A DNA stretch of 64,000 nucleotides, taken from positions 1,813,001 through 1,877,000 of the forward strand of contig NZ_CP058648.1 of NCBI RefSeq assembly GCF_018141405.1, in the 5' to 3' direction. The notes under the pieces are model-generated. The model searched no databases. It had not been told where the DNA came from and saw only the letters and a program-made list of their open reading frames with translations. Position numbers and translations under genes: made by a program. This document shows, piece after piece, positions 47,092 through 63,941 of this stretch (within the stretch, counting starts at the first letter, position 1; each line of letters starts with the position of its first letter). This DNA comes from Serpentinicella alkaliphila (GTDB lineage Bacteria; Bacillota; Clostridia; Peptostreptococcales; Natronincolaceae).

Positions 47092-47094
47092 CAC

Positions 47095-47131
47095 AAAAGG
47101 GTATCTATGAATAAGTAATAGATGCCCTTTT
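47095..47131 (+). terminator. Intrinsic terminator
   Basis: AAAAGGGTATCTAT / ATAGATGCCCTTTT stem (one G-T pair) with a 9-base loop. Confidence 0.85.
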
Positions 47132-47326
47132 AATATAGAGAAGTAATAAATTAGCTAATAATATGTTTTTAACTCTGATTATTCAAAATATTACATAAAT
47201 TTATTAAAAATACTTTAAATTTTTACAAAATAAGTTACAAAAATAGAATATAATTAAAATATAAGGTTGTTCATCAATTTATAGCTATTCCTAATCTAAC
47301 AGTTAATCAGATACTAGCCTTATAAT

Positions 47327-47342
47327 TAGAGACAAGTCTCTA
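47327..47342. promoter_or_regulatory. Palindrome before sigma-54 activator gene
   Basis: TAGAGACAAGTCTCTA: 7-base arms around AA, directly downstream of a TATAAT (47321-47326) that lacks a good -35. It could be an operator at the start point of the activator gene. The rest of 47132-47399 shows nothing else. Confidence 0.5.
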
Positions 47343-47399
47343 GTACATATAAGTTATGTCATAATATTGTAAGTAAGTGTAGTAGGAGGGGGATGAATT

Positions 47400-49505
47400 A
47401 TGGTTTTGACTTTTCTTGATTGTTTTTTTCTCAAATCAAATCAAAGGATTAAAGATGGAATTAAGCTATTTATGAAAACAAAAAGCAACACACTCCCGAT
47501 TGTTAGTGAAGAAGGACAATATTTAGGTCTTATAGTATTAAAGGATTTAGTAAAACACCTACTTAAGGAAGAAAATATTTTGATGAAGGATTTAATAATT
47601 TGGCATGAGCCTATTCTTGCAGAAGCAAATCCATTAAATGTTGAATTTGATGAAATGGATACAATCGATATTGTGCCAGTGATAAAAACAGAGAATATGG
47701 AATTTGAAGGCTTTTATATTAAAGAGGAGATTGTAACCCTAAAATATGAAAAGCATAGGGAGCTAGTCCATGAACTTAATCAAGTTATAAACTCCTCGTA
47801 TAATGGAATTTTGGCAATTAATTCGGAAGGCAACATTATAGTATATAACACTGCAGCTGAACGAATTATGGGGAAACCAAAGGATAAGGTATTTGGTAAG
47901 CACATTTCATATGTAGATCCTGATAAAGCACTGCTAGATACATTGAAGACTCAGGAGGTTTCCGTAAATGTTAAGCGGGTAATTAATGGTTATGATATAC
48001 TTTCAAATCGAAGTCCTCTAATATACGAAGGAAGATGTATTGGTGCAGTAGGGGTATTCGTAGATAGGTCGGATATCGAGAAAGTTAGCTATGAATTAGA
48101 ATCCTATAAGAAACTATCAAAGGAATTAAATGATATACTAGAAGCTTCATATGATGGACTATACATTTGTGATAAGGAAGGACGAGTAATAAGAGTAAAC
48201 TCATCCTGGGAAAAAATATGTGGTCTATCTAGAGAATATACAATTGGAAAAACTGCACAGGAGCTAATTAAAGACGGATGGTATGATAATTCAGCCGCAC
48301 TTTTAACTTTGAAAAATAAAGAAGTATCAACAACTATGTTAGAAATAACCTCAGGTCCTAAAAAGGGCCAAATAATAATGGCAACTGGAACACCTATTTT
48401 CGATAAGAATGGAGAATTAGATTTAGTAGTAGTTAATGTAAGAGATATTACATATTTAGAGCATTTAAAAACCCAATTGGTTGAAACTATGGAGTTGAGT
48501 AAAAGATATGCGACTGAATTAGAGGAAATTCGTTTGCAGGCCAAGAAGATGGAAGATATAGTTGTTCGTAGTCCTGAAATGCAGCGGATAATGGAGCTAG
48601 CAATTAGAGTTTCAAAGGTAGACTCAACTGTAATAATAACAGGAGAGTCAGGGGTTGGGAAGGATGTTATAGCAAAGAAAATTCACTATTTAAGTAAGCG
48701 AAAAGATAAATCATATATTAAAATAAATTGTGGTGCTATACCAGAACATCTTCTTGAATCAGAGCTATTCGGATATGAAGGCGGAGCCTTTACAGGTGCT
48801 AAAAAAGAGGGTAAACTAGGGATGTTTGAGTTAGCTTCTGGTGGAACATTGTTTTTAGATGAAGTCGGAGATTTGCCCCTATGCCTTCAAGTTAAGCTAT
48901 TAAGGGCAATTCAAGAAAAAGAAATAGTTAGAGTAGGCGGAGTTAAAACTATCAAAGTAGATGTAAGATTGATCTCAGCTACTAATAAAAATCTGGAGCT
49001 AATGATTAGAGAAGGAACCTTTAGAGAAGATTTATTTTACAGGCTCAATGTAGTAAATATTCAAATACCGCCCCTAAGAGAACGGAAAGAGGATATGGAG
49101 TATTTACTAGGTTTTATGCTAAATAAGCATAATCAAAATTATGGGCTTAATAAAAAACTGGCTGCCCCTGTAGTGGAAAGATTACTTAGCTATAACTGGC
49201 CAGGAAATATAAGAGAGATGGAGAATATGATTGAAAGATTAGTTGTATTGACAGATGAAGAACAGATTCAAATAAGGCATTTGCCGGTCTTTTTACAAGA
49301 GGAATTGTCAGCTAGTAAGTTGGTAACTTTAAATAGCATTATTCCTCTTAAGGATGCTATAGAAGAGGTAGAGCAACAACTAATAAGAAAGGCCTTAGAT
49401 AAATATGTAACTACTAGGAAAGTGGCTAAAATGTTAGGCGTTAACCAGTCAACAGTAGTAAGAAAAATAAAGCAATATAGTATAGAGAAGCACGATGCAT
49501 CATAG
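47400..49505 (+). CDS. Sigma-54-dependent activator with CBS-like and PAS domains
   Basis: A 701-residue enhancer-binding protein. The N-terminal 120 residues resemble a degenerate CBS pair (NTLPIVSEEGQYLGLIVLKDL). Two PAS domains follow (about 125-225, NSSYNGILAINSEGNIIVYN; about 245-355, EASYDGLYICDKEGRVIRVN). The AAA+ domain has Walker A GESGVGKD (about 415), the sigma-54 contact loop GAFTGA (about 462) and TLFLDEVGD. A Fis-type HTH ends the protein (KVAKMLGVNQSTVVRKIKQY). It probably senses a small molecule or redox state and turns on the sigma-54 promoter 243 bases after its stop. The Shine-Dalgarno is AGGAGGGGG. Confidence 0.93.
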   Translation: MVLTFLDCFFLKSNQRIKDGIKLFMKTKSNTLPIVSEEGQYLGLIVLKDLVKHLLKEENILMKDLIIWHEPILAEANPLNVEFDEMDTIDIVPVIKTENMEFEGFYIKEEIVTLKYEKHRELVHELNQVINSSYNGILAINSEGNIIVYNTAAERIMGKPKDKVFGKHISYVDPDKALLDTLKTQEVSVNVKRVINGYDILSNRSPLIYEGRCIGAVGVFVDRSDIEKVSYELESYKKLSKELNDILEASYDGLYICDKEGRVIRVNSSWEKICGLSREYTIGKTAQELIKDGWYDNSAALLTLKNKEVSTTMLEITSGPKKGQIIMATGTPIFDKNGELDLVVVNVRDITYLEHLKTQLVETMELSKRYATELEEIRLQAKKMEDIVVRSPEMQRIMELAIRVSKVDSTVIITGESGVGKDVIAKKIHYLSKRKDKSYIKINCGAIPEHLLESELFGYEGGAFTGAKKEGKLGMFELASGGTLFLDEVGDLPLCLQVKLLRAIQEKEIVRVGGVKTIKVDVRLISATNKNLELMIREGTFREDLFYRLNVVNIQIPPLRERKEDMEYLLGFMLNKHNQNYGLNKKLAAPVVERLLSYNWPGNIREMENMIERLVVLTDEEQIQIRHLPVFLQEELSASKLVTLNSIIPLKDAIEEVEQQLIRKALDKYVTTRKVAKMLGVNQSTVVRKIKQYSIEKHDAS

Positions 49506-49632
49506 CATCATGCAGATGTGAATACGCATCTGTTGAAAATTAAATAGTGCATATACAACAACTTATGATTGCAACTTATCACTGATGCATGAGCAAATCA
49601 TATAATTTAATAAATTAAAAATGATATAATAG

Positions 49633-49669
49633 AAAATCCATTTGGTCTAGGGCTAAATGGATTTTTTAT
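49633..49669 (+). terminator. Intrinsic terminator after sigma-54 activator
   Basis: AAATCCATTT / AAATGGATTT stem with an 11-base loop, then TTTATTTTTTT. Confidence 0.85.
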
Positions 49670-49747
49670 TTTTTTGCAACTGTTGAACATATTGAAATTG
49701 CAAGAATTCAAAATTATTTTTCATTAATAACATTTATATAAATAATG

Positions 49748-49764
49748 TTGGCATGCTTGTTGCT
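49748..49764 (+). promoter_or_regulatory. Sigma-54 (-24/-12) promoter, first catabolic unit
   Basis: TTGGCATGCTTGTTGCT has the invariant GG and GC separated by 10 bases and matches TGGCAY-N4-TTGC very well. The start point near 49776 gives a 30-base leader to the CoA-transferase gene. Candidate activator sites (TAGTGCAT at 49545-49552, TTTTTGCAAC at 49671-49680) lie upstream. Confidence 0.92.
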
Positions 49765-49805
49765 TTGTTAATGTAGTAACAAATTAAATAGGAAGGAGCG
49801 ATAAA

Positions 49806-51110
49806 ATGAATAGATGGCAAGAAATGTATATAAGCAAATTAGCTTCTCCAAAAGAGATAGTTAAAGCTATAAAATCCGGTGATGTTTGTGCAAGTACTTG
49901 TGCTTTAGGAGAACCAATCGGGCTGGTTGAAGCTTTAGCTACGAGAGTAAAAGAAGAGCAGTTAACAGGAATAAAGCACCATATGCTATTAACTTTAAGA
50001 AATAATGCGTATTTATCTCCTTCAGTGTCGGATAGGTTACAACACGTTGCATGGTTTACAAGTGGATTTGCAAGAAAGGCTGTTCAAGAAGGAAGAGCAG
50101 ATTTTATGCCATGTTATTACAAGGATGCACCAAGATTGTGGAGAGAATTTGTTGAGGCTGATGTTTTCTACGCTACAGTATCGCCGATGGATCAGCATGG
50201 TTGGTTTAGCTTTGGAGTCTCTGTAAGTAATGCGAGAGCTCAGCTATCTAGAGCGAAGAAGGTATTTCTAGAAGTAAACAAATATATGCCAAGAACTCAT
50301 GGAACTGGTTTTGTTCATATCTCAGAAGTTGATGCTATATGTGAAAACGATTTACCTCTAGTTGAACTTGGGGATGCACCAATAACTGAAAAAGATGCTA
50401 TTGTTGGAAATATAATAGCTGATTTAATTCCAAATGAAGCGACTATTCAATTAGGAATTGGTGGGATTCCAAATGCGGTAGCACAAGCATTAAAAAATAA
50501 AAGAGATTTAGGTATACACAGTGAAATGTTCACAGAAGGAATGGTGGACTTAATTGAGGCTGGAGTAGTTACAAATAGAAAGAAAAATATTAACAATAAT
50601 AAAACAATTGCTGGATTTGCTGCAGGCAGTAGAAGAATGTATGACTTTCTAGATGATAATCCGGGTGTTGAATTCCATTCTATAGATTATGTTAATGATT
50701 TAAATGTAATTGCTTCCCATGAGAAGTTTGTGTCTATTAATGCAACTTTAGAGGTAGACCTACTGGGTCAGGTAGCTTCAGAGTCTATAGGACCCCGCCA
50801 ATTTAGTGGAACCGGTGGTCAGGCAGATTTTGTTAGAGGGGCTAGCTATTCAAAGGGTGGAATGTCATTTATAACCACCTATGCAACAGCTAAAAAGGAT
50901 ACAATATCAAAAATTAAGCCTACACTTACTGAGGGGTCTCACGTTACATGTACAAAAAATGATGTGGACTATATAGTAACAGAGTTTGGGGCTGCAAGAC
51001 TTAGAGGAAAGACTGCATCCGAAAGAGCAAAGACGTTAATAGCAATAGCACACCCAGCCTTTAGAGAAGAGTTAACACAAGCTGCACGAAAAATGCATCT
51101 TATTCCATAA
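49806..51110 (+). CDS. 4-hydroxybutyrate/acetate-type CoA-transferase, first copy
   Basis: A 434-residue acetyl-CoA hydrolase/transferase family protein, the size of 4-hydroxybutyrate CoA-transferase AbfT (about 438). Seen are RTHGTGFVHISEVD, QLGIGGIPNAV, the catalytic glutamate E240 in GIHSEMFTEG, and the FSGTGGQADFVRGA oxyanion/CoA loop. It should move CoA from acetyl-CoA to a hydroxy or short-chain acid. It is the first gene after the sigma-54 promoter and precedes the dehydratase-like gene. It is clearly related to the second copy at 54781. The true acid is unknown. Confidence 0.92.
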   Translation: MNRWQEMYISKLASPKEIVKAIKSGDVCASTCALGEPIGLVEALATRVKEEQLTGIKHHMLLTLRNNAYLSPSVSDRLQHVAWFTSGFARKAVQEGRADFMPCYYKDAPRLWREFVEADVFYATVSPMDQHGWFSFGVSVSNARAQLSRAKKVFLEVNKYMPRTHGTGFVHISEVDAICENDLPLVELGDAPITEKDAIVGNIIADLIPNEATIQLGIGGIPNAVAQALKNKRDLGIHSEMFTEGMVDLIEAGVVTNRKKNINNNKTIAGFAAGSRRMYDFLDDNPGVEFHSIDYVNDLNVIASHEKFVSINATLEVDLLGQVASESIGPRQFSGTGGQADFVRGASYSKGGMSFITTYATAKKDTISKIKPTLTEGSHVTCTKNDVDYIVTEFGAARLRGKTASERAKTLIAIAHPAFREELTQAARKMHLIP

Positions 51111-51254
51111 ATAAATAAGTAACTTTAATAACACAGCCAATGAATTAAAAAATACACAAAAATGATGAGAGGGAGTGGGAGTAGACTTTAGAAATAATAA
51201 GTACATTATTTTAGTTTAATAAAAATTATCAACCAAAAAAGGGAGGAATTTATA

Positions 51255-52712
51255 ATGGCATTAAAAACAGGTGAACAATATAAGGAAAGCTTAAGAAAAA
51301 TGAGACCAAACGTGTACAAGTGGGATAGATTGATTGAAGATATAACAACAGATCCAGTAACAAGAGGGCACGTTGCTTCAGTAGCACATTCTTATGATAT
51401 GAGCTTTGATGAGAAAGATGCATATATTTATACAGCAAAATCTCACTTAACAGGGGAAATAGCACACAGATGGAATACATTACCACAAACTGCTGAAGAT
51501 CAAATGCACAATGCAAGAATGAAAAGACATCAATATAGACATTCTGGAACATGTAAAGGAGCAACCTGTGCTGGTTGGACTGGAATGACAGTGCTTTGGG
51601 CTGTTACACAGGAAATGGATAAAGAATATGGTACTAACTATCATGAGCGCCTTAAAAACTATTTTAAATACGTAGAAGATAATGCACTAGCCCTAGCAGG
51701 GGCTATTACAGATGCAAAAGGTGATAGATCTCTTAAACCATCTCAACAAAAAAATAAAGATTCACATGTACACATTAAAGAAGTAAGAGAAGATGGAATC
51801 GTTATAAGAGGATACAAAACTCAAATTTGTGGTATAGTTGGAGCTAATGAGATTATAGTTGTTCCTGGTGGTGGTTACGGGGAATCAGAAAAGGATTTCT
51901 GTCTAGCAGTAGCAGTACCAAGAGATGTTGAAGGACTTACATGCGTAATTACACGAAAACCAAGTGATACTCGTGAAGAAGAAGAGGGCTGGGATGCTCC
52001 AAAAGTCGGAACAATTACACAAGCATACTTAATATTTGATGATGTATTTGTACCAAATGAGCGTGTATTTATGGCTGGTGAGTATAAATACAGTGGTAAA
52101 ATAATTGGATACTTCGCAGCAATTTATAGAGCAGCAATTGGCGCATGTGTTGCTGGTCAAGGGGATGTTATGATAGGGGCAGCAATAAATATGGCTAGAG
52201 CAAATGGTTTATCTCAAAAGGTATTTCAAGATAAATTAACTCAAATGGCCATTAATAATGAAATTAACTATGGAACTGGTTTAGGCGCTATGTTAGCAGG
52301 AAAACAGCATGAGTCTGGACTTTATATACCTGATGCTTTATTAGCTCATGTTAATAAAACTCAAGTAGCTAAACTTCCTTATGAAACAAAAGTTATTACT
52401 CAAGATATTAGTGGTGGTATTGCTGAAACCGGATGTATTCCATCATATAAAGATTTCCAATCTGAGTTATATGGAGAGCATCTATATAAAGCATTAGAAG
52501 CTGCAACCGATGGAGAATCAAGAACTAGAGCTGCTCGTTTAGCAGAATGGTTAACTGTAGGCGCAGGTATTCCTGGATGTATGCATGGTGGTGGTTCACC
52601 AGATGGCGCTAAGATGGTAGTTAAGGCTTTAACTAAGTGGGAAGATTATGCTGCTGATGCAAAAAGAATTGCAGGAATTACCGGGGAAATCGTAGAACCT
52701 AAAAAGAAATAA
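51255..52712 (+). CDS. 4-hydroxybutyryl-CoA dehydratase-like flavoprotein with altered active site
   Basis: A 485-residue member of the 4-hydroxybutyryl-CoA dehydratase / HpaB flavoprotein family, full length and collinear with AbfD (about 490). Compared from memory with AbfD of C. aminobutyricum, only one cluster ligand is plainly kept: C298 (AbfD C299). AbfD C99 and C103 correspond to a region with C100 and C105, whose spacing is one residue longer; AbfD H292 is Y291. AbfD E257, Y296, K300, E455 and T190 correspond to Q256, I295, V299, G441 and C192. FAD-binding GAITDAKGD is present. It is therefore unlikely to be an ordinary 4-hydroxybutyryl-CoA dehydratase. The cotranscribed CoA-transferase and permease imply a CoA-thioester substrate. 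Confidence 0.85.
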   Translation: MALKTGEQYKESLRKMRPNVYKWDRLIEDITTDPVTRGHVASVAHSYDMSFDEKDAYIYTAKSHLTGEIAHRWNTLPQTAEDQMHNARMKRHQYRHSGTCKGATCAGWTGMTVLWAVTQEMDKEYGTNYHERLKNYFKYVEDNALALAGAITDAKGDRSLKPSQQKNKDSHVHIKEVREDGIVIRGYKTQICGIVGANEIIVVPGGGYGESEKDFCLAVAVPRDVEGLTCVITRKPSDTREEEEGWDAPKVGTITQAYLIFDDVFVPNERVFMAGEYKYSGKIIGYFAAIYRAAIGACVAGQGDVMIGAAINMARANGLSQKVFQDKLTQMAINNEINYGTGLGAMLAGKQHESGLYIPDALLAHVNKTQVAKLPYETKVITQDISGGIAETGCIPSYKDFQSELYGEHLYKALEAATDGESRTRAARLAEWLTVGAGIPGCMHGGGSPDGAKMVVKALTKWEDYAADAKRIAGITGEIVEPKKK

Positions 52713-52785
52713 AAATTAATAATAGCAAATCGCCTGACTATATGTAAGTGTATTAAAAGTTTTGATTTAAAGTTTAATATAATTT

Positions 52786-52813
52786 GTTATCTCTCCCTTC
52801 TGGGAGAGGTAAC
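52786..52813 (+). promoter_or_regulatory. Strong intercistronic hairpin
   Basis: GTTATCTCTCCC / GGGAGAGGTAAC 12-bp stem (one G-T pair) with a TTCT loop and no T-run after it. It may protect the upstream mRNA or partly end transcription before the permease gene. Confidence 0.7.
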
Positions 52814-52873
52814 AAATAAAAATACTTCTAGTGCAATCTTAAGGTTTAAAATAAAATTCTAGGAGGGTAAATT

Positions 52874-54235
52874 ATGGCGATTGTAAGAGAAAACGGAAAA
52901 GAGCAACCTTATGTACCATTTGGACCATTTAAGCTAAGAATCCCGTTCGTACATTTTAGGTGGGAGTGGCCAGAGGCAATTCAAGGAGCGTTACTGGTAG
53001 CAGTGCCTATGGGAGCAATACCAGTTTTGCAAGAAACATTAGGAGTATCATTTGAAGTAGCCCTTACTATGATGATACTAAACGGAATTTTATATATTTT
53101 ACATCCAACTTTCGGTGATCCATTATTCCCAGGATGGATTACACCAGCAATACCATTAGTATTAGGATATGCAGCCGGTTTTGAGCCAGGGGTAGACAGA
53201 ATACATTCCATCATTGCTTTGCAGCTCTCGATGGCCGTCGTATTCACTCTAATGGGAGTTACCGGATGGGCTAAAAAGATTGTAAGTAAAGTACCAGTCT
53301 CCTTAAGAGGGGGTATTATTCTAGGGGCTGGGATAGCAGCAGTTCATAGTGTTGTTAATCCAAACGGTAGAATGAAGGGTATGGAAATTACAATTATGGC
53401 AGGGGCTGTAATTTGTTATCTAGTATTATTCTCTTGGAGATTCTATGTTGCAAAGGACAAAAATACCTTCTTAAATCAATTATCTAAGTTTGGTATGCTA
53501 CCAGGATTTATAGTGGCGCTAATTCTTGGTCCACTATTTAAAGAACTACCAATGCCTCAAATTCAAATGGGTTTTTCAAGCTTAAGATTTGGTGAGTTAA
53601 TAAGTGGATATACTGTATTTGGTGCTCCGGGATTCCCACCACTTGAGTATTTTGTTAAGGCTATTCCATTAGTATTTGCTGCATATATTATTGCCTTCGG
53701 AGACTTCGTTCTTGCAGAGGTAGTTACTAAAGATGCGGATGAAGTTAGAAAAGACGAAATTATTGACTTTAACGCAAATAGATCTAATATGATTTCAGGC
53801 TTTAGAAACTTAATTATGGGATTATTTGCTCCATACGCCCCATTAAATGGACCACTATGGGCAGGTGGAACAATAGCAGCTGTAGAAAGATACAAACACG
53901 GTAGAAAGTCAATGGATAGTATTTTTGGTGGAATGGGTTCGTATATTATCGCAATGGCAATTGCTGCATTCTTTACTCCAGTAATATCACTACTTCGTCC
54001 AGCTCTTCCAGCGGGATTATCTTTAACATTAATAGTTCAAGGTTTTGCTTGCGCATATATAGCCATGGAAATGCTTAAGACTAAAGAAGAACGTGGGGTT
54101 GCAGGTATTATGGCAATATTCCTAGCCTTTAGGGGAGCATCATGGGGATTAGCTGTAGGTGTTATTCTTCACTTAGTAATAGGTGTAAGAGATATGGTAG
54201 CCCCAAAGGTAGAAAAAGAGGCGAAATCAGCATAG
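52874..54235 (+). CDS. Multi-pass permease (NCS2/SulP-like), first copy
   Basis: A 453-residue membrane protein with about 12 hydrophobic segments. Recognisable elements are HPTFGDPLFPGWITPAIPLVLG in the first half and FAAYIIAFGDFVLAEVVTKDADE, NANRSNMISGFRN and MDSIFGGMGSY in the second. The repeated half structure and the acidic D/E-rich loop after a conserved helix recall the NCS2/SulP transporters, but I cannot place it in a defined family. It is cotranscribed with a CoA-transferase and the dehydratase-like enzyme, so it probably imports the acid they use. A second copy is at 56175. AGGAGGG precedes the start. Confidence 0.8.
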   Translation: MAIVRENGKEQPYVPFGPFKLRIPFVHFRWEWPEAIQGALLVAVPMGAIPVLQETLGVSFEVALTMMILNGILYILHPTFGDPLFPGWITPAIPLVLGYAAGFEPGVDRIHSIIALQLSMAVVFTLMGVTGWAKKIVSKVPVSLRGGIILGAGIAAVHSVVNPNGRMKGMEITIMAGAVICYLVLFSWRFYVAKDKNTFLNQLSKFGMLPGFIVALILGPLFKELPMPQIQMGFSSLRFGELISGYTVFGAPGFPPLEYFVKAIPLVFAAYIIAFGDFVLAEVVTKDADEVRKDEIIDFNANRSNMISGFRNLIMGLFAPYAPLNGPLWAGGTIAAVERYKHGRKSMDSIFGGMGSYIIAMAIAAFFTPVISLLRPALPAGLSLTLIVQGFACAYIAMEMLKTKEERGVAGIMAIFLAFRGASWGLAVGVILHLVIGVRDMVAPKVEKEAKSA

Positions 54236-54256
54236 ATAAGTATTTAAATTAGGTCT

Positions 54257-54287
54257 AATTAACAATGAGTCCCCCTCATTATTAATT
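54257..54287 (+). terminator. Hairpin after first permease
   Basis: AATTAACAATGAG / CTCATTATTAATT 13-base arms (one mismatch) with a TCCCC loop. A second, weaker stem with TTTTTATTTT lies at 54304-54340 and is the likely terminator. Confidence 0.6.
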
Positions 54288-54494
54288 GAATAAGTAAAAA
54301 ATCAATAAAAAGATTGGGTAATAATTTACTCAGTCTTTTTATTTTATAATGCAAACTCGCAATACAGTGTAAAAATGCACTAGTCCAAATTGTATTCTGT
54401 TGCAAAAACACATTGTTTCTTTATTTTAAATTGATTTAAAAATGTACAACTATTGAAATTACTAGATTATATTTTTAAAACTTACAATAACAAC

Positions 54495-54511
54495 TTGGCA
54501 CAATATATGCA
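54495..54511 (+). promoter_or_regulatory. Sigma-54 (-24/-12) promoter, second catabolic unit
   Basis: TTGGCACAATATATGCA has GG and GC separated by 10 bases, with a perfect TTGGCAC -24 element. Upstream are ATGCACTA (54375-54382) and GTTGCAAAAA (54399-54408), the reverse complements of motifs before the first promoter. The transcript would start near 54523, about 258 bases before the coding start. Confidence 0.9.
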
Positions 54512-54522
54512 ATATATAAATG

Positions 54523-54780
54523 CAGATGTTATGGATGAGTGATTAAATGACTCTGAAAACTGCAAGTAAGTATGAAAACTTACGTAAGTTAAATCAAGAA
54601 GTATACCTTCTTGTTGGAAGGGTAGTAATCTACTGACTCGACTCAAGCTCAAAAAGTGTGATATCAAAATCAATCTAACTTAGGGATGAAGTAACAAATA
54701 GTAATAGACCTGTTTGATATTAAAGAATAGTAGGGTGTAGTGCGTTCAAGTTTATTTTATCAATGAGAGGGGAGAGCATA
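54523..54780 (+). promoter_or_regulatory. Long structured 5' leader of second CoA-transferase
   Basis: About 258 bases separate the sigma-54 start point from the gene; the first unit has only 30. Two perfect hairpins are GTAAGT / ACTTAC (54566-54583) and CAAGAAG / CTTCTTG (54595-54613). A pyrimidine-poor stretch leads to the AGAGGGGAGAG Shine-Dalgarno. I see no coding frame of note. It matches no riboswitch class I know. Confidence 0.45.
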
Positions 54781-56082
54781 ATGAAAGACTGGCAGATGGT
54801 ATATAAAAGCAAGGTTGTTACTCCAGAAAAGGCTGTGAAAAACATAAAGTCTGGTGATAGAGTAGTTGTTGCTCATGCTGCTGCAGAGCCACAAATTATT
54901 ACGGAGGCTATGGTAAAAAACTATGAGAGTTATACTGGGGTAGAGGTAGTTCATATGGTTCCTCTAGGAAAAGGAGAATATATGAGTCCAGGAATGGAAA
55001 AACATTTTAGACATAATGGACTTTTCTTAGGAGGGAAAACAAGAGGTGCCATAGCTGAAGGTAGAGGTGACTATACTCCAAGCTTTTTCTTTGAAATACC
55101 AAGACTTTTTAAAAAGGATATTTTGCCAGTAGATGTAGCATTAATTCAAGTCTCTAAACCAGATATTCAGGGCTATTGTAGTTTCGGGGTTTCTGTAGAT
55201 TATACAAAGAGCGCTACTGAGAAAGCAAAATTAGTTATTGCTCAAGTGAATGATCAGATGCCTAGAACACATGGAGAAAGCTTTATTCATATTAGTGAGA
55301 TTGACTATATTGTAGAATCTTCCCAACCAATTTTAGAGCTGCCAACCCCTAAAATTGGCGAAGTCGAAAGAAAAATAGGAGAATATTGTGCTAGTTTAAT
55401 CGAGGACGGCTCAACTCTTCAGTTAGGCATAGGTGGAATACCTGATGCAGTACTGTCATTTCTTAAGGAAAAAAGTGACCTAGGAATTCATTCCGAAATG
55501 TTTTCGGATGGGGTACTAGAATTAGTTATGAATGGTAACGTCACAAACAAGTTGAAAACCCTACACAAGGATAGATTTATTGCCACTTTCCTTATGGGAA
55601 GCAAAAAATTATATGATTTCGTAAACGATAATCCTAGTGTATTAATGTATCCTGTAGATTATGTTAATCACCCTGCTGTTATAGCACAAAATTATAAGAT
55701 GGTTTCAGTAAACTCAGCAATACAAGTGGATTTAATGGGTCAGGTTGCAGCAGAAACTATCGGATATAAGCAGTTTAGTGGTACTGGTGGCCAGGTAGAT
55801 TTTGTTAGGGGTACTTCCTTAGCCCAAGATGGAAAATCAATTATTGCATTACCATCGGTGGCCTCGGGAGGGAAAATCTCTAGAATTACACCTATTCTTG
55901 ACGAAGGAGCAGCTGTTACAACATCCAGAAATGACGTTCACTATATTGTTACCGAATACGGTATTGCAAATTTAAAGGGAAAAACCTTAAGAGAGAGGGC
56001 TAAAGAACTAATAAAAATAGCACATCCTAGCTTTAGAGAAATACTGACAGAAAAGGCTATTTTAAAGTATAAGAGCTTATAA
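54781..56082 (+). CDS. 4-hydroxybutyrate/acetate-type CoA-transferase, second copy
   Basis: A 433-residue paralogue of the gene at 49806, with PRTHGESFIHISEID, QLGIGGIPDAV, catalytic E239 in GIHSEMFSDG, and FSGTGGQVDFVRGT. I chose ATG 54781 because AGAGGGGAGAG lies just upstream; an earlier ATG at 54763 would contain that site. It should transfer CoA to a short organic acid. It is followed by a permease but not by a dehydratase-like gene. The paralogue may serve a different acid or growth condition. Confidence 0.92.
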   Translation: MKDWQMVYKSKVVTPEKAVKNIKSGDRVVVAHAAAEPQIITEAMVKNYESYTGVEVVHMVPLGKGEYMSPGMEKHFRHNGLFLGGKTRGAIAEGRGDYTPSFFFEIPRLFKKDILPVDVALIQVSKPDIQGYCSFGVSVDYTKSATEKAKLVIAQVNDQMPRTHGESFIHISEIDYIVESSQPILELPTPKIGEVERKIGEYCASLIEDGSTLQLGIGGIPDAVLSFLKEKSDLGIHSEMFSDGVLELVMNGNVTNKLKTLHKDRFIATFLMGSKKLYDFVNDNPSVLMYPVDYVNHPAVIAQNYKMVSVNSAIQVDLMGQVAAETIGYKQFSGTGGQVDFVRGTSLAQDGKSIIALPSVASGGKISRITPILDEGAAVTTSRNDVHYIVTEYGIANLKGKTLRERAKELIKIAHPSFREILTEKAILKYKSL

Positions 56083-56174
56083 CATGAAAATTAACTTCTG
56101 ATAAAAGTTTATGAAATCTACAAAAGATTTTCTATGAGATAGTAGATAGATTAATTTAATGAGGAGGTTAATTT

Positions 56175-57530
56175 ATGAAAAGAAGTTATGGTGGAGAACA
56201 ACCATATTTTGCAGCAGGTATATTCAAAATAAGGCTTCCATTTATACACTATAGATGGGAATGGTCCGAATGCTTACAGGGCTTATTAATGTGTGCTACA
56301 TGTCTAGGGGCAATACCTATTTTAACAGGAACCCTTGGTATATCTTTTGAATTAGCATGGTCAATGGTTATTATTAACGGAATTTTATATAGTCTTCATT
56401 CTCTTTTAGGTGATCCAGTAGTTCCGGGATGGATAACACCTTCTATACCTTTAACAATTGCATTTTTAAATGAGTATGCTCTTGGTATAGAAAGGATACA
56501 GGCGCTAATAGCATTACAAATTCTAGTAGGACTAATGTTTATTATTATGGGCATAACTGGGGTTGCTGGTAAATTGATAAGAATAGTACCTAGTTCTTTG
56601 AAAGCTGGGATTTTACTAGGGGCTGCCATAGCAGCAGTAACAGGTGAATTTAAATTGGGTGGAAGATTTGGATCATACCCTATGGCAATTTTAATTGGTG
56701 CTTTAATTGCTTACTATATTCTTTTCTCAGATGGATTTAAAAATTTGAGGAAGAGTTCTCAAGCTGCAAACTTACTTGGAAAGTATGGAATGCTACCTGC
56801 AATAATTGTTGCGATTATTGTTGGCCCATTATTTAGTGAGTTGCCTATGCCACAAATAGAGATAGGGTCTGTTATAAAAATTCCACAGGTAGGAGAATTA
56901 TTTAAAAATGTAAGTCCTTTTGGAATTGGTTTTCCAGCAGTAAACTTGTTTATTCAAGCTATTCCGATGGCCTTTATTGCATATATTATAGCATTTGGCG
57001 ATTTTGCAACTGGGGAAGCTCTTATAAAAGAGGCTGATGAAGCAAGGCCAGATGAAGTAATAGATTTTAACTCAAATAGATCTAATCTAGTAAGTGGTTT
57101 TAGAAATATTATTCTAGCACTAATAGCTCCTTATGTTACTTTAGCAGGTCCCCTTTGGGCTGCAGTAACAGCTGCGGTTTCACAAAGATACCAAGAGGGC
57201 AGAGAAGCCATGGATTCAATCTTTAGCGGAGTTGGTACCTTTAGATTAACTACACTTGTTGCAGTTGCGTTGGTTCCAATAGTTTCATTAGTACAGCCAG
57301 TACTACCAGTTGCCCTATCATTAACATTATTAGTTCAAGGCTATGTTTGCGCAAGATTAGCTATGAATATTTGTGAAAATGATGCAGATAGAGGGATTGC
57401 AGGTGTAATGGGTGCTGTACTAGCCACTAGGGGAGCAGCCTGGGGATTTGTTGTTGGTATCGTATTATTCTTTGTGTTATCAGATATTAGTAAACTAAAA
57501 AAGCAAAAAAAGACTGAGACAGTTGAATAA
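56175..57530 (+). CDS. Multi-pass permease (NCS2/SulP-like), second copy
   Basis: A 451-residue paralogue of the permease at 52874. It shares GGEQPYFAAG at the start, LGDPVVPGWITPSIPLTI, AFIAYIIAFGDFATGEALIKEADE, NSNRSNLVSGFRN and MDSIFSGVGTF. About 12 membrane segments are predicted. With the preceding CoA-transferase it forms the second sigma-54 unit. The strictly kept acidic loop and NRSN motif are probably substrate- or ion-binding. GAGGAGG precedes the start. Confidence 0.8.
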   Translation: MKRSYGGEQPYFAAGIFKIRLPFIHYRWEWSECLQGLLMCATCLGAIPILTGTLGISFELAWSMVIINGILYSLHSLLGDPVVPGWITPSIPLTIAFLNEYALGIERIQALIALQILVGLMFIIMGITGVAGKLIRIVPSSLKAGILLGAAIAAVTGEFKLGGRFGSYPMAILIGALIAYYILFSDGFKNLRKSSQAANLLGKYGMLPAIIVAIIVGPLFSELPMPQIEIGSVIKIPQVGELFKNVSPFGIGFPAVNLFIQAIPMAFIAYIIAFGDFATGEALIKEADEARPDEVIDFNSNRSNLVSGFRNIILALIAPYVTLAGPLWAAVTAAVSQRYQEGREAMDSIFSGVGTFRLTTLVAVALVPIVSLVQPVLPVALSLTLLVQGYVCARLAMNICENDADRGIAGVMGAVLATRGAAWGFVVGIVLFFVLSDISKLKKQKKTETVE

Positions 57531-57567
57531 ATATGTTAGATAGGATAATTAAATAATTTTATGCCTA

Positions 57568-57607
57568 CTGCTTAATAGATTTTATATAGTCTATTAAGCA
57601 GTTTTTT
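57568..57607 (+). terminator. Intrinsic terminator after second unit
   Basis: CTGCTTAATAGA / TCTATTAAGCAG perfect 12-bp stem with a 10-base loop, then TTTTTT. Confidence 0.9.
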
Positions 57608-57666
57608 AATTCTATAGGAAATTATAAAATTAAAAATCTGTGGATAACATATGGTATGATTGAGAT

Positions 57667-58932
57667 ATGAATAGAAAAAAGATAACAGTTAAAGAGATAT
57701 TGGTAGATAGATATGAGGACTTTAAAAACACATACTGGTCTAGAGTTCCTAAGGTTATGAGAGAACATATAGATGATCTAGTAAATAAGGCTATAAATTG
57801 TAGCGATGTTAAAAATGGATATGCCGAATATATATGTGAGGATTGTTTTAGTGTAACGAAAGTACCATTTACATGTAAAAGCAAGTTTTGCAATAAATGC
57901 GGAAGAGTATATACACTAAAATGGGAAAAAAGCAAACAACAGAACATGTTAAGGGTAGGGCATAGACATAGTGTATTTACAATGCCTAAGGAACTGAGAA
58001 ACTTCTTTTATGCAAGGAGAGAATTATTAAAAGAATTGCAGGATGCAGTATACAACGTAATTTCATATTGGTATAAAAATAATAGGAAATGTGATTATGA
58101 AGTAGGTATAATAGCTGTAGTGCACACCTTTGGAAGAGATTTGAAATGGAACCCACATATACATGCATTAGTAACAGAGGGAGCAATAGATAGAAATAAT
58201 AATTGGTGGAAGAGTGTTGAATATATACCATATCCATTTTTGAAGAAAGCATGGCAGAAGGTGCTACTAGAAATAATTAAGAAATATTTTAATAGTTATG
58301 AAACCAGGCAGCTAATAAGTGAGATGTATAAAAGATATCCAAATGGGTTTTATGTTAATGCAAAGAGAAAACTGAATGATACAAGACAAGCAGTAAAGTA
58401 CATAGGAAGATATCTTGCTAGAGCAGCTATAGCAGAATATAGAATAGAGGAATATGATGGAGAAAAGGTTACGTTTTGGTATGAAGATCATAACGATGGA
58501 AAAAAAGTAAAGATAACTATGGATGTGTTAGAATTTATAGGAAAAATAACACAACATATAGTACCTAAAGGATTCAAGACAGTAAGAAGATATGGACTGT
58601 ATTCAAGGAGAAGAAATAAGATATCCAAGGATATAGTGCATCTATATAATTTTATGAAGGAAAAGTCTATAGAAAAATTGCTTAGGGATAAGAGAAAAAG
58701 TTTTGAAAAGAAAAAGACCTGGAAAGAGAGGATTATAGAGAATTTCGGAAGAAATCCACTTTTATGTGTAAAATGTACCACTGAAAAAATTTTATGGAGA
58801 ATATGGCATAAAGACTATGGGGTGATATATGATATAAGAGAATCTAGGGATATGGAGGAAATATTATATGAGCCCATTAGTAGAGCGCCATTACAAAGAA
58901 AAGTTGTACAAATATCATTGTTTGAAGTGTAA
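57667..58932 (+). CDS. IS91-like transposase (HUH type)
   Basis: A 421-residue rolling-circle transposase. An N-terminal zinc finger (C57, C60, C70, C75, C78; YICEDCFSV, FTCKSKFCNKCGR) is followed by SVFTMPKELR, the metal-binding HUH motif NPHIHALVTEG and the catalytic tyrosine region AVKYIGRYLAR. It nicks single-stranded DNA and moves the element by rolling-circle transfer. It looks intact. It lies between the second permease and the second sigma-54 activator, so the insertion probably split an older gene neighbourhood. Its Shine-Dalgarno is weak. Confidence 0.9.
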   Translation: MNRKKITVKEILVDRYEDFKNTYWSRVPKVMREHIDDLVNKAINCSDVKNGYAEYICEDCFSVTKVPFTCKSKFCNKCGRVYTLKWEKSKQQNMLRVGHRHSVFTMPKELRNFFYARRELLKELQDAVYNVISYWYKNNRKCDYEVGIIAVVHTFGRDLKWNPHIHALVTEGAIDRNNNWWKSVEYIPYPFLKKAWQKVLLEIIKKYFNSYETRQLISEMYKRYPNGFYVNAKRKLNDTRQAVKYIGRYLARAAIAEYRIEEYDGEKVTFWYEDHNDGKKVKITMDVLEFIGKITQHIVPKGFKTVRRYGLYSRRRNKISKDIVHLYNFMKEKSIEKLLRDKRKSFEKKKTWKERIIENFGRNPLLCVKCTTEKILWRIWHKDYGVIYDIRESRDMEEILYEPISRAPLQRKVVQISLFEV

Positions 58933-59146
58933 GTATTTGGAGTGGGCTCCCGCAGATATTGTGGATGAGTTTGCAGATTTGGATACCTACTGTGACGAAG
59001 AGTACGACGAAGAACAAAATAAAAATAGAAAAGGTATGCCGATTATGGTATGCCCTAATTGTAATGAGGATTTTTATTATTTTGGTGAACAAAAAGAAGA
59101 AAAACACTCATACCTAGAAGAAGATGATGAGTGTATTCCTTTTTAA
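58868..59146 (+). CDS. Zinc-ribbon accessory protein of the IS91-like element
   Basis: A 92-residue acidic protein with two CxxC pairs (YHCLKCKYLEW; MVCPNCNEDF), likely a zinc ribbon. It overlaps the last 65 bases of the transposase gene in another frame and has GGAGG before its start, so it is translated by coupling. It may be a partner or regulator of transposition. A terminator-like hairpin follows. Confidence 0.7.
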   Translation: MSPLVERHYKEKLYKYHCLKCKYLEWAPADIVDEFADLDTYCDEEYDEEQNKNRKGMPIMVCPNCNEDFYYFGEQKEEKHSYLEEDDECIPF

Positions 59147-59152
59147 ACACAG

Positions 59153-59173
59153 TCCCCGTCAGGGGATTTTTTT
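59153..59173 (+). terminator. Hairpin after IS91 accessory gene
   Basis: TCCCC / GGGGA stem with a GTCA loop followed by TTTTTTT. It may also mark the terminus of the IS91-like element, which in this family ends in a hairpin. Confidence 0.75.
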
Positions 59174-59324
59174 ATACAAATAATAAGTAGATTTAAAATA
59201 GTGATAGAAAAAGGTTTTCTAAATATTAATATCGAATAAAAAGTAGTACAAGCTAATATATTTATATAAGACCTTATTAACTTCTAGAAAATAAATATAT
59301 TCACAGTTCTAAGGTGGGATGAAT

Positions 59325-61064
59325 ATGAAAATGAATTATAAACTACTTGAGTATGTTTTAAACAATTCTATAAATGGTGTTGTAATCGTAGAAAATGATT
59401 TTAGTATAAAGTATATGAATAAAAGAGCTAAAGAGATTCTTGAGCTAGTGGATTCATATGAAAATCATCACTTATATGAATTTTTTTTGTTAGAGGAATT
59501 AGACAAACTTGAGAGGCAAGGTATTGATGAGTTTGATAAGCTTCATTATAAAAATAAAACATTAAGTGTGAGTACACTATTAATAGATAATTTAATGGGA
59601 TATAGTGGAAAAGCATATATTCTGCAAGATATTTCAAAATATAAAAATATAGTTGATCAAATCGATAAATATAAGGAGCTTAATAAAACCCTGGAATGTA
59701 TAATTCATTCTTCCTATGATGGTATATACGTAACTGATGGTCAAGCCAATACTCTTATGATAAATAGTGCCTACGAGAGAATTACCGGAATTAAAGCTGA
59801 AGAAGTATTAGGAAGGAATATGAACGACTTAGTAAAAGAGGGTCTTTTCAGTCAGTCTAGTTCATTATTAGCAATTCAGGAAAGAAGGCAGGTAACAATA
59901 AGGCAGCTTATAAAGCAGTCTAAAGAGGTTTTAGTAACTAGTACACCTGTATTTTTTAAGAATACAATTACACATGTTGTAACAAATGTTAGGGATATTT
60001 CTGAATTAGTGGATTTAAAGATAGAGCTTATGGATACAAAAGCCTTAAATGAAAGATATTTAACTGAATTAGAATATATAAAAAGCAAACTTATAGATAC
60101 GCCAGAAATAGTAGTCAGGGATAGAAATATGTACAAGGTTATAGAAATGTCTTTAAGGGTAGCAAGGGTCGATACAACAGTGCTATTAAATGGAGAAACA
60201 GGTGTAGGAAAGGGAGAACTATCAAAATTTATACATAAAAATAGCCCTAGATCAAAAGGGTGTTTTGTAGAGGTAAATTGTGGTGCTATACCCCAAAATC
60301 TTATTGAGTCAGAGTTATTTGGTTATGAGAAAGGTGCATTTACTGGAGCAAGCAGTAAAGGTAAGATAGGGCTTTTTGAACTAGCTAATAATGGTACAAT
60401 TTTTCTCGATGAAATATCTGAGTTGTCACTAGATTTGCAAGTTAAATTATTAAAGATTATCGAAGATAAGAGGGTTATTAGATTAGGCGGAAATAAATCT
60501 ATGCCGATAGATGTCCGTATAATTGCTGCGACTAATAAAAATATTAAAGAAATGGTTGAAAAAGGAAAATTTAGAGATGATTTATATTATCGTCTAAATG
60601 TAGTTCCAATATATATATATGCCTTAAAAGAGAGAAAGGACGATATAATACCTTTAAGCATTAAGTTTTTAAATGATTTTAATAGGAAATATAATATGGA
60701 TAAAAAGCTAGCCCCTAGTGTATTAAATAAATTTTTAGACTATAATTGGCCAGGAAATGTGAGGGAACTTAGAAATTTAATTGAAAGAATTGTCGTCATT
60801 TCTAGTGAGAAGCAAATAAATGAAGATATAATACCTGAGTATATTATAAAAAAAGATATAAAAACCCAGGAAGATGGCGGCGAATATTCAAGCTATAAGG
60901 AAGGTTATGAGGGTATGTCCTTAAAGATGGCTACTCAAAACTTTGAAGCAAAGTTAATAAGCCATTCAATAAAAAAATATGGTTCAATTAAAGAGGCTGC
61001 AAAGCATCTGGATATAGATGCCTCAACTATAAATAGGAAATTAAATAAAAATAGAAAAAAATGA
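59325..61064 (+). CDS. Sigma-54-dependent activator with PAS domains
   Basis: A 579-residue enhancer-binding protein. Two PAS domains (about 5-105, NNSINGVVIVENDFSIKYMN; about 120-225, HSSYDGIYVTDGQANTLMIN) precede an AAA+ domain with Walker A GETGVGKG (about 290), GAFTGA (about 337) and TIFLDEISE. A Fis-type HTH ends it (SIKEAAKHLDIDASTINRKL). I chose ATG 59325 because AGGTGG lies 7 bases upstream; ATG 59319 would abut that site. It lacks the CBS-like part of the first activator. It probably controls one of the two sigma-54 promoters. Confidence 0.92.
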   Translation: MKMNYKLLEYVLNNSINGVVIVENDFSIKYMNKRAKEILELVDSYENHHLYEFFLLEELDKLERQGIDEFDKLHYKNKTLSVSTLLIDNLMGYSGKAYILQDISKYKNIVDQIDKYKELNKTLECIIHSSYDGIYVTDGQANTLMINSAYERITGIKAEEVLGRNMNDLVKEGLFSQSSSLLAIQERRQVTIRQLIKQSKEVLVTSTPVFFKNTITHVVTNVRDISELVDLKIELMDTKALNERYLTELEYIKSKLIDTPEIVVRDRNMYKVIEMSLRVARVDTTVLLNGETGVGKGELSKFIHKNSPRSKGCFVEVNCGAIPQNLIESELFGYEKGAFTGASSKGKIGLFELANNGTIFLDEISELSLDLQVKLLKIIEDKRVIRLGGNKSMPIDVRIIAATNKNIKEMVEKGKFRDDLYYRLNVVPIYIYALKERKDDIIPLSIKFLNDFNRKYNMDKKLAPSVLNKFLDYNWPGNVRELRNLIERIVVISSEKQINEDIIPEYIIKKDIKTQEDGGEYSSYKEGYEGMSLKMATQNFEAKLISHSIKKYGSIKEAAKHLDIDASTINRKLNKNRKK

Positions 61065-61065
61065 T

Positions 61066-61092
61066 AAAATAGGACTGAGATGTCCTATTTTT
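61066..61092 (+). terminator. Intrinsic terminator after second activator
   Basis: AAAATAGGAC / GTCCTATTTT perfect 10-bp stem with a 6-base loop. Confidence 0.88.
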
Positions 61093-61185
61093 ATATATTT
61101 AATATGTTTTTTCCTACTTGTTTACAGGTTACTTTAAGTCTAATATAATTAAGTGCTAAATTGTAAAGTAAAGGACTGATATATT

Positions 61186-62202
61186 ATGACAAATTCTAGT
61201 ATCAATAAATATTCTAAAGGGTTTTTCGTATCATTAACAATAGCTATTACTGCAACTTTTGTAGCTAGAATTACACCTAGTATTATAGGAAGTAGTATAA
61301 TTTCTTTAGTATTAGGAATGGCACTAAACTATTTTATAAACTCAAACACTGGTATAGATGAGGGTGCTAAATTTGTATCAAAAAGGGTATTACAATTTGC
61401 AATTATACTAATGGGTACAAGATTAAATATAAATCAAGTTTTCACGGTCGGAAGATTCGCCTTATTTGTTATGATTTTTACAGTTTCTGCAGCATATTTA
61501 TCAGCATATTCATTTGGTAATATTCTTAATATAAACCAAAAGCTAAGAGCCCTTGTTGGCACAGGAACTGCAATATGTGGAGGGTCAGCAATACTTGCTT
61601 TGTCTCCTATAATTGACGCAGATGAAAATGATATAGCCTATGCTATTTCCTCTGTATTTTTATTCGATGTACTAATGATTGTTACTTTTCCTTTAATCGG
61701 TATACTACTTAATATGTCAGACTTATCCTATGGTTTGTGGGCAGGTACAGGCATTAATGATACTTCTTCAGTGGTAGCTGCTGGCTATGCATTTAGTAAT
61801 GCAGCAGGAGATTATGCCACAATAGTTAAATTAACTAGAACAACAGCCATTATTCCTATAACATTGATTTATTCTGCTATAGTAATGTATAAAGGTGATA
61901 AGGAAAACAAGGAGTCTCACAAAATTAGTAATGTTTTTCCTTGGTTTATTCTATTATTCTTACTAAGTTCAATAATAAACTCCTTAGGCTTAATACCATC
62001 TGAAATAAGTACTACCTTAAGCTTTTTGAGCAAGTTTCTAATGACTATGGCACTAGCTGCTGTTGGATTAAAAACTAACTTAAAAAAGATGATTAAGTCT
62101 GGAATAAAACCAATTGGTTTAGGGTTTATTGCCTCTTCTGTTGTTGTTTTAGTTTCAATGTTAGCCCAATATCTAGCTACAGCATATATATTTATTCACT
62201 AA
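61186..62202 (+). CDS. UPF0324 (YeiH-family) membrane protein
   Basis: A 338-residue membrane protein with about 10 hydrophobic segments. Family signatures are FAIILMGTRLNINQVF, GTGTAICGGSAILALSPII and GTGINDTSSVVAAGYAFS. Relatives (YeiH) are annotated as putative sulfate or sulfonate exporters without firm proof. It stands alone between the sigma-54 activator and a transposase and has only a weak Shine-Dalgarno. Confidence 0.9.
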   Translation: MTNSSINKYSKGFFVSLTIAITATFVARITPSIIGSSIISLVLGMALNYFINSNTGIDEGAKFVSKRVLQFAIILMGTRLNINQVFTVGRFALFVMIFTVSAAYLSAYSFGNILNINQKLRALVGTGTAICGGSAILALSPIIDADENDIAYAISSVFLFDVLMIVTFPLIGILLNMSDLSYGLWAGTGINDTSSVVAAGYAFSNAAGDYATIVKLTRTTAIIPITLIYSAIVMYKGDKENKESHKISNVFPWFILLFLLSSIINSLGLIPSEISTTLSFLSKFLMTMALAAVGLKTNLKKMIKSGIKPIGLGFIASSVVVLVSMLAQYLATAYIFIH

Positions 62203-62356
62203 AATAAAACAGATTAATTGTTAGGAATAGATCATACGGGATTGAATAGTTCAATACCTATGTTTCCTGAAGTCACAGAGGCCTTAGTTGAAACTTGTAG
62301 TTTTTTATGAGAAAAATTCCTCAGATATAACCTGACTTTGGAACATCATTCATAAG

Positions 62357-62419: not shown

Positions 62420-63941
62420 CTACATCTTTTTAATTATATTGGGGATTTCATTACTTAGCAGAACATTCTTTTCAATCTTAAATATGTCTTTGTTTATTTT
62501 ACTATTAAGTAATTTGTCTGACATTATATATAATTTGTCTACTTTGTAATCAATTTCATCTATTATAAATCCTTCTAGTCCATTGATTATTTCATAGGTA
62601 GATAATTCAACTTTATTCACTGCTAACTTATACTCTAATATTCTTTGCATTACTAAGGCTAAATAACAAATTAAAAAATGCGACCTAATTCTTCGTTCTT
62701 TAAAGTGATATACTGGTCTTGTTTTTAAATTTGTTTTTAATATTCTAAAGGATTCTTCAATTTTATATAGAGATTTATAAGCTACCATTATATCTCTTTG
62801 GGTTCATATCCACTTTATTTGTAACAATGTAAAAATATCCGAAATTTTCTTGCTCTTGTTTAATTATTTCCTCATCAATTTCAATGTTTATTTTTTCTTT
62901 AGGGTTTTCTACTGCTTTATAATACTTGCTTTTGGATTTAGTTGTTGAATTGATTGTAAAATCCTTTATATTCTTTTTAGCTCTTTCAATCATTTTCTCT
63001 TGTTTAAACATCTCACGTTCTTTGTAGACATCTGAATATTTTTTTATGATTAATTCGTCATAGGTTTCATCATTCTGACTCACCTTTCTTTTACTGGTTA
63101 TATATCCGCTTTTGTATTTAGCTTCTGCATTAGAAGTTATGTTCCAAGATGAATTAAATTTCTTCTCTTTTAAATCTTTAGGAACTGCACTGCCCTTAGA
63201 ACCTACAATGTAACTAAGCCCTTTACCTCGAATCATCTCTAAGTTAGCCCTTGAATTTAAGCCCCTATCAGCCACTATTATGATTTCTTTTATGGTGTAA
63301 TTATTTAATATATCGTCAATGACTTCTTCCATGGTATGTAATTCATGTTTGTTGCCTTTAAAAAGCCTATAAGAAATAGGTATCCCATTGGTGTCTATTA
63401 GTAAGCCCATAACAACTTGTGTTTCATTTCTTTTATTATCCTTACTCATACCTCTTTCTCTAAATCCGTCTTCATCAAAAGACTCAAAGTAATAGGTTGT
63501 ACAGTCATAAAATGCTAATGACATATTTCTATCTGGAATAATCTTTCCTATATGATCATTTAAATGTTTGAAAAGTTTATTTTCATTCATTTCAAAATTT
63601 TTATCATAGGTAGCTATATTTTGTTCCAATTCATCAGAAGTGTTTTTAATGTTATATTCTAATATTTTTTTAGCCTCTGAATCAACGGTATCTAAGAGGA
63701 TTTCCATGTTTTTTATGAGCTGAACTCCATCTGTTAGTGCTTTAGATTTATGTTTATTAAATCCAGAAAAAACATCTAGGGAAGAATAAATGTTATCGCT
63801 ATTCACAAAACTGAAATCATATAGGAAATCATCTTTTCTAGAAGCCACTTCAAGCTTGCTTGAAGGATTAAATAATCTACCAAGTACCTGATAGAACATT
63901 AAGTTACTAAAGGAATAATCTAGTTTAGAATCTTTCACCAT
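62420..63941 (-). pseudogene. IS1634/IS4-like transposase, frameshifted
   Basis: Two overlapping frames on the minus strand make one transposase of about 500 residues. The first (63941 to 62775) has FYDCTTYYFESF (catalytic Asp), IIIVADRGLNSRANLEMI (second Asp) and ends YIVTNKVDMNPKRYNG. The second (62788 to 62420) continues with YKSLYKIEESFRILKTNLKTRPV, which holds the catalytic Glu of the DDE triad. One base is lost near 62785 in CCCAAAGAGATATAATGG. Without it or a frameshift event the protein lacks its third catalytic residue. The gene start is near 63941; terminal repeats were not found. Confidence 0.8.

Follow-up and report, generated by a model that had tools for sequence, protein, structure and literature searches.

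4-Hydroxybutyryl-CoA dehydratase (4HBD; AbfD) serves as a model of two things: dehydration through a ketyl radical at an unactivated C-H bond, and a [4Fe-4S] cluster in which one of the ligands is histidine. Archaeal "type-2" paralogs of this enzyme with altered active sites exist as well. Bacterial clusters of this enzyme under sigma-54 control are already known, given that the sigma-54 regulon XanR, abfD-nifU-hyp-ach-golB, has been predicted in Clostridium (PMC6615313, Table 1) and that COG2368 appears in a survey among the groups under sigma-54 control, chiefly in Clostridia (PMC12316311). Here, we compare with these clusters a locus of Serpentinicella alkaliphila that contains two consecutive sigma-54-dependent units, units 1 and 2, each encoding a CoA-transferase (CoA-T1 and CoA-T2) and a permease (PERM1 and PERM2), together with two sigma-54 activators, the enhancer-binding proteins (EBPs) EBP1 and EBP2. 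The stretch analyzed, hereafter the window, comprises 64,000 nt (NZ_CP058648.1, 1,813,001-1,877,000) of a 3.26-Mb chromosome on one contig, and coordinates are window positions unless stated otherwise; the genome carries a single sigma-54 gene. We consider it fairly probable that unit 2 is the relic of a 4-hydroxybutyrate cluster served by a 4HBD encoded at 3.04 Mb of the same genome, and that unit 1 is a separate module for import, CoA transfer, and conversion by a divergent flavoenzyme.

Origins of the two units

The two EBPs, two -24/-12 promoters, two CoA-transferases, and two like permeases recognized in the initial annotation are all present where it had placed them, and the only intact dehydratase-like gene, a member of the HpaB/4HBD family, is indeed that of unit 1 (51255-52712). 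The proposal that the units are twins has to be abandoned: CoA-T1 and CoA-T2 are only ~46% identical, PERM1 and PERM2 49%, and the proteins are related to separate subfamilies. These comparisons indicate that the two units are of different origins, and the companion idea of two variants for related acids holds in part, the modules stemming from different subfamilies.

When the genes of unit 2 (54496-57530; plus strand, as are all features of the locus through EBP2) were compared with those of ~35 fetched clusters, close counterparts were found in genome G118, which belongs to the same family and in which 4HBD is followed by a NifU-like protein, CoA-transferase, permease, a small CGGC protein, crotonase, and EBP. 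CoA-T2 (54763-56082) is 76% identical to its G118 counterpart (locus L070) and groups with AbfT (3gk7; 3e-159) and the Porphyromonas gingivalis 4-hydroxybutyrate CoA-transferase (3eh7; 2e-170) with 98% SH-aLRT support, which identifies it as a predicted 4-hydroxybutyrate CoA-transferase. PERM2 (56175-57530), an ortholog of the permease of canonical 4HBD clusters, is 80% identical to that of L070 and 77% to that of L069, and EBP2 (59319-61064; PAS-PAS-AAA-HTH), likewise of the canonical 4HBD-cluster type, shares 59% identity with the L070 activator and 53% with those of L085 and L100.

Within the 251 bp that separate the unit 2 promoter (TGGCACAATATATGCA, 54496-54511) from CoA-T2, canonical 4HBD is matched twice, and both matches are correctly ordered and oriented. 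The first corresponds to residues 1-27 (54547-54624; 59% over 27 aa to L100) and begins 35 bp past the promoter, the spacing of canonical clusters; the second corresponds to the last 30 residues (454-483) and the TAG stop codon of the same protein (54638-54730; 57% over 30 aa to L100 and L070). The two remnants lie in different frames, the second has internal stops, and ~56 codons survive in all; the best remnant match scores 35.4 bits, compared with 24.3 bits for the top of 400 dinucleotide-preserving shuffles. Thus, the dehydratase is missing from unit 2 because its gene was deleted, leaving a scar that illustrates the decay of a catabolic cluster. Unit 2 retains the AbfT-type CoA-transferase, the -24/-12 promoter, and the EBP of a sigma-54 4-hydroxybutyrate cluster and lacks a linked intact 4HBD and nifU. 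Judged by homology and gene order, unit 2 together with EBP2 is evidently the surviving rear half of this common type of cluster, ordinary and decayed. Between PERM2 and EBP2, an IS91-family transposase gene (57667-58932; NF033538, 294 bits vs. a cut-off of 125) occupies the position of the CGGC protein and crotonase genes in G118, and a search around it for a crotonase remnant found none. We do not attribute the loss of 4HBD to insertion of this element, because it sits at the opposite end of unit 2.

Besides that of unit 1, the genome has a single HpaB_N gene, which encodes an intact canonical 4HBD (chromosome positions 3,044,172-3,045,617, 1.2 Mb away). Upstream of it are an EBP gene and a promoter-like site of its own, TGGCATAGTACTTGCT; downstream are genes for NifU and a CGGC protein. 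This second 4HBD probably covers the loss of the unit 2 gene, and the two loci may cooperate. Jointly, they resemble the XanR regulon in holding abfD, nifU, a small protein, and a CoA-transferase under sigma-54; unlike that regulon, the set is split over two loci, the unit 2 4HBD is deleted, a permease is present, and the activators are their own. The initial annotation knew of no described pathway with such a set, which does not hold for unit 2, since abfD-nifU-hyp-ach under a sigma-54 activator has been described (PMC6615313), and does hold for unit 1, for which none was found. A few kilobases downstream of the 3.04-Mb locus, three similar tandem open reading frames (ORFs) of 72-83 aa were observed (L032:4492-5526; PQLPGTVLRIFIPAGAVINLLNLIELTSPSGICLIIRLP and variants). 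The small CGGC-motif protein, 85-104 aa long, recurs in canonical 4HBD clusters (L032:7611-7868, L070:8231-8521, L072:12253-12528, and others), and its L072 copy has no NCBIfam match.

Among 297 sampled genomes of the order, 39 encode the permease, and in 16 of these the permease gene is clustered with canonical 4HBD and a CoA-transferase gene, a co-occurrence for which the initial annotation had proposed a search; in two further genomes, the permease is found beside canonical 4HBD, either as a fragment or at the end of a contig. Of the canonical 4HBD loci retrieved for the order, 18 of 18 have a NifU-like gene, and most canonical loci have a -24/-12 site 36-116 bp 5' of 4HBD. The operon linkage of the permease to canonical 4HBD is an addition of the present analysis, a literature search having found no paper on the two together, and suggests hydroxy acids as the cargo of some "nucleobase-like" carriers.

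Conservation and control of unit 1

The CoA-transferase, enzyme, and permease types of unit 1 (49493-54235) recur, along with an EBP, in four other genomes: metagenome-assembled genomes (MAGs) of Anaerosolibacter (L034), Peptococcaceae (L033, with a different gene order), and Eubacteriales (L035), and genome G1045 (L122). In the trees of all three proteins, the five unit-1 genomes form one clade, with the exception that two relatives linked to acyl-CoA dehydrogenase (ACAD) genes (L066 and L067) are placed just outside this clade in the enzyme tree. EBP1 (47400-49505), a CBS-PAS-PAS-AAA-HTH protein according to Pfam and NCBIfam, is 52-63% identical to the EBPs of L034, L033, and L035, the three unit-1 loci compared, vs. 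~40% to others. The parts of unit 1 are therefore conserved together, with concordant trees, contrary to the scattered neighborhoods that the initial annotation had named as a refutation, and these comparisons indicate an independent, conserved catabolic module.

The regulatory elements are conserved as well. The unit 1 promoter (TGGCATGCTTGTTGCT, 49749-49764) lies 41 bp 5' of CoA-T1 (49806-51110), and TGGCA[CT]-N5-TTGC[AT] is present at all six unit-1 operon heads, at distances of 37-64 bp to the start codon. A -24/-12 site that scores as well occurs in just 1.7% of 698 control upstream regions, which makes the promoters more than a chance match. Farther upstream are three enhancer sites, the first of which (CGATGCATCATAGCATCA, 49493-49510) matches TGATGC-N6-GCATCA at 11 of 12 positions, with the second (49514-49531) 21 bp from the first and the third (49583-49600) 69 bp from the second. 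Such a triple array is found at all six heads, the sites being spaced by 21 bp and by 65-69 bp. The arrays score 29-33 out of 36, whereas none of 835 control upstream regions exceeds 24. This gap is partly circular because the motif was found and the spacing read on the six head sequences themselves before the controls were scored; more telling is that the 21-bp spacing recurs at every one of the six heads. The array likely comprises the binding sites of EBP1 and, as such, predicts the regulon of this activator.

The divergent 4HBD-family enzyme of unit 1

The 485-aa enzyme of unit 1, a member of a divergent clade that we denote 4HBD-Y, contains the Pfam domains HpaB_N and HpaB, and the nearest solved structures are those of 4HBD 1u8v (2e-85) and 6vjr. 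An AlphaFold2 model computed from 61 aligned sequences reached a pLDDT of 91.8 (a 6-row alignment gave a poor model, with 46) and was matched by Foldseek to 1u8v with a TM-score of 0.94 and an rmsd of 1.5, and to 6vjr with 0.94; the predicted model thus has the HpaB/4HBD fold. The BFVD database yielded a single weak match, a viral acyl-CoA oxidase. With 1u8v, to which it is 36% identical (up to ~41% to other canonical 4HBDs), the enzyme shares fold, length, the three cluster cysteines, Arg90, and His458. The cysteines Cys99, Cys103, and Cys299 (1u8v numbering; Cys100, Cys105, and Cys298 in the unit 1 enzyme) are invariant in 61 of 61 sequences, with one residue inserted between the first two in the unit 1 enzyme (CX4C vs. 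CX3C). The protein is a predicted FAD enzyme with a probable [4Fe-4S] cluster.

The remainder of the active site is changed. The position of His292, the fourth cluster ligand of 1u8v, is occupied by Tyr in 20 of the 21 clade members (Tyr291 in the unit 1 enzyme) and by Glu in one; Gln101, Thr190, Glu257, Tyr296, Lys300, and Ala460 are replaced across the clade, which also has a deletion of the segment containing Glu455. The enzyme thus has neither the full [4Fe-4S] ligand set, three cysteines and His292, nor the catalytic residue set of AbfD. The canonical 4HBDs displayed in our alignment all keep C99, Q101, C103, T190, H292, Y296, C299, K300, and E455, vs. only the cysteines in the clade, and the canonical 4HBD of the same genome (L032) likewise retains the catalytic residues lost in unit 1. 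The clade (n = 21) has 100% SH-aLRT support and a long stem of 0.82 changes per column; members were detected in 3 additional genomes of the 391 sampled from the class and ~11 of 398 from the phylum, and a literature search found no paper on it. Other candidate ligands were dismissed: C442, invariant in the first six sequences, is Thr in L130 and hence not required, and C192, at the position of T190, is Ala in several members. We also considered, and did not adopt, gamma-butyrobetaine lyase (BbuA/gbu), which shares ~10% identity with 4HBD (PMC8364193), as the identity of the enzyme.

These replacements bear on the alternative that unit 1 is a second 4-hydroxybutyrate pathway, in which an enzyme with a rebuilt site would dehydrate 4-hydroxybutyryl-CoA or isomerize vinylacetyl-CoA. 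The TM-score to 1u8v, the retained cysteines, and a CoA-transferase, permease, and sigma-54 control of the same kind as in canonical clusters would all fit. However, seven residues, including His292, are replaced and Glu455 is deleted clade-wide, at positions whose roles in 4HBD have been defined by structural and mutant work and where several single changes in Buckel's mutants reportedly eliminate or severely impair activity; CoA-T1 is not part of the AbfT group and joins RipA (4n8h) on a long branch; and the genome already has a canonical 4HBD. Furthermore, a NifU-like partner is encoded beside none of the divergent loci fetched, unit 1 included. Because of the changed or lost catalytic residues and the missing nifU partner, the enzyme is unlikely to be a 4-hydroxybutyryl-CoA dehydratase, and we regard a second 4-hydroxybutyrate pathway as improbable. 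The term "4HBD-like" applied in the initial annotation accordingly suits the fold of the protein and, if meant as its activity, does not.

With the histidine and nearly the whole catalytic set swapped while fold and cysteines are kept, across anaerobic Firmicutes, the clade allows a direct test of the residue roles and of the other chemistry of the scaffold; it is conserved, uncharacterized, and well supported, and worth characterizing. A further 4HBD-family clade (L138:2602-4032, L140:8591-10015, and L141:8602-10026) keeps His292, Tyr296, and Lys300 and has Gly, Ala, or Ser in place of Glu455; an old-yellow-enzyme-like gene is located close to the L138 and L139 members.

Possible functions and neighboring features

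Unit-1-type loci lie near genes for the electron-transfer flavoprotein (Etf) subunits EtfA or EtfBA (L033, L034, and L122), aldehyde:ferredoxin oxidoreductase (L033 and L122), crotonase (L034 and L035), Hbd (L034), and thiolase and a TfrB-like iron-sulfur protein (L122). Other clade members are found with ACAD-EtfBA and 2-oxoacid:ferredoxin oxidoreductase (OFOR) genes (L066, L067, L132, and L133, with VorB above the cut-off in L132), a PaaK-like ligase gene (L124, L130, and L131), or thiolase-ACAD-EtfBA genes (L127). The common theme appears to be an acyl-CoA supplied by a transferase, ligase, or oxidoreductase and passed to beta-oxidation, with no single substrate singled out.

Such neighborhoods could also mean that the enzyme is an Etf-linked, ACAD-like oxidoreductase that desaturates or isomerizes an acyl-CoA, the clade having turned from redox-neutral dehydratase to net redox enzyme. 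This would be consistent with EtfA or EtfBA beside the enzyme without a neighboring ACAD in L034, L033, and L122, with the TfrB-like protein in L122, with the ACAD-EtfBA, OFOR, or PaaK-like ligase genes directly adjoining other members, and with a fold related to that of ACAD. Yet where an ACAD is present, it would itself be the partner of Etf, no Etf gene is adjacent in the window or in L035, and electron transfer would be deduced from neighbors, so that this possibility seems about as doubtful as the second pathway.

Under the favored reading of unit 1 as a separate module, EBP1, sensing a signal through its PAS or CBS domains, would bind the three upstream sites and drive a single sigma-54 operon of CoA-T1, the flavoenzyme, and PERM1. 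By homology, PERM1 (52874-54235) would import a short carboxylate, and CoA-T1, a class I CoA-transferase, would make its CoA ester with CoA from acetyl-CoA or a similar donor. The flavoenzyme may then catalyze a radical-type or flavin-based dehydration, isomerization, or oxidation unlike that of 4HBD, and the product would enter CoA-linked beta-oxidation, via crotonase, Hbd, thiolase, and EtfAB in the relatives. In unit 2, PERM2 would import 4-hydroxybutyrate and CoA-T2 would form 4-hydroxybutyryl-CoA. This scheme agrees with the initial outline, in which an organic acid is imported, activated with CoA, and converted under sigma-54 control; the unit 1 reaction itself is the conjectural step. 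More tentatively, the unit 1 enzyme might found a new functional class within the 4HBD fold, with FAD and a [4Fe-4S] cluster held by three cysteines and Tyr (or with an open iron), catalyzing some acyl-CoA reaction, perhaps one linked to Etf, that differs from the dehydration of 4-hydroxybutyryl-CoA and forms part of an undescribed sigma-54 pathway of import, activation, and conversion.

The permeases are indeed alike in the two units, as initially annotated, and are less unusual than was then thought: both align over nearly their full length with the NAT/NCS2-fold transporter PurT of Colwellia psychrerythraea (7tak; 1e-107 and 6e-117), the closest solved relative. In contrast to PurT, their operon context here is short-chain acyl-CoA metabolism, and their substrate is a prediction. 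That they are instead carriers of nucleobases or other heterocycles, and that the modules process a heterocyclic carboxylate rather than a short aliphatic acid, is suggested by this strong similarity and by a homolog (L095) near genes judged by eye to resemble those of pyrimidine reduction, but appears the least probable of the alternatives, since in 16 sampled genomes the permease shares an operon with 4HBD and a 4-hydroxybutyrate-type CoA-transferase, and since the linked permeases fall in several clades away from PurT. Family members also occur beside a class I CoA-transferase-like protein and an acyl-CoA dehydrogenase (L097:3228-7392) and beside a PaaK-like ligase and a divergent 4HBD (L124:7489-13932), contexts that suggest a wider role of the family as organic-acid carriers.

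Several points weigh against the interpretation of unit 2 as a relic served from 3.04 Mb and of unit 1 as a separate module. The 3.04-Mb 4HBD does not branch with the G118 4HBD in the tree and is therefore a separate second copy, not simply the relocated unit 2 gene. The four other unit-1 loci are all on draft genomes (MAGs or contigs), and in the window itself, no EtfAB, crotonase, or thiolase genes adjoin the units. The permease might also have a different cargo, since PurT is reportedly a purine transporter. Finally, sequence points to no particular substrate for unit 1, and the enzyme roles are predicted.

An Rfam scan of positions 47000-62300 found no RNA. Upstream of EBP1, the window encodes a STIV B116-like protein (44985-45311; PF08960, 3.5e-32), which is unrelated to both units. 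Near the other end, on the minus strand (62420-63941), two adjoining ORFs of 388 and 122 aa resemble one frame-broken transposase, next to a gene for a YeiH-like transporter.

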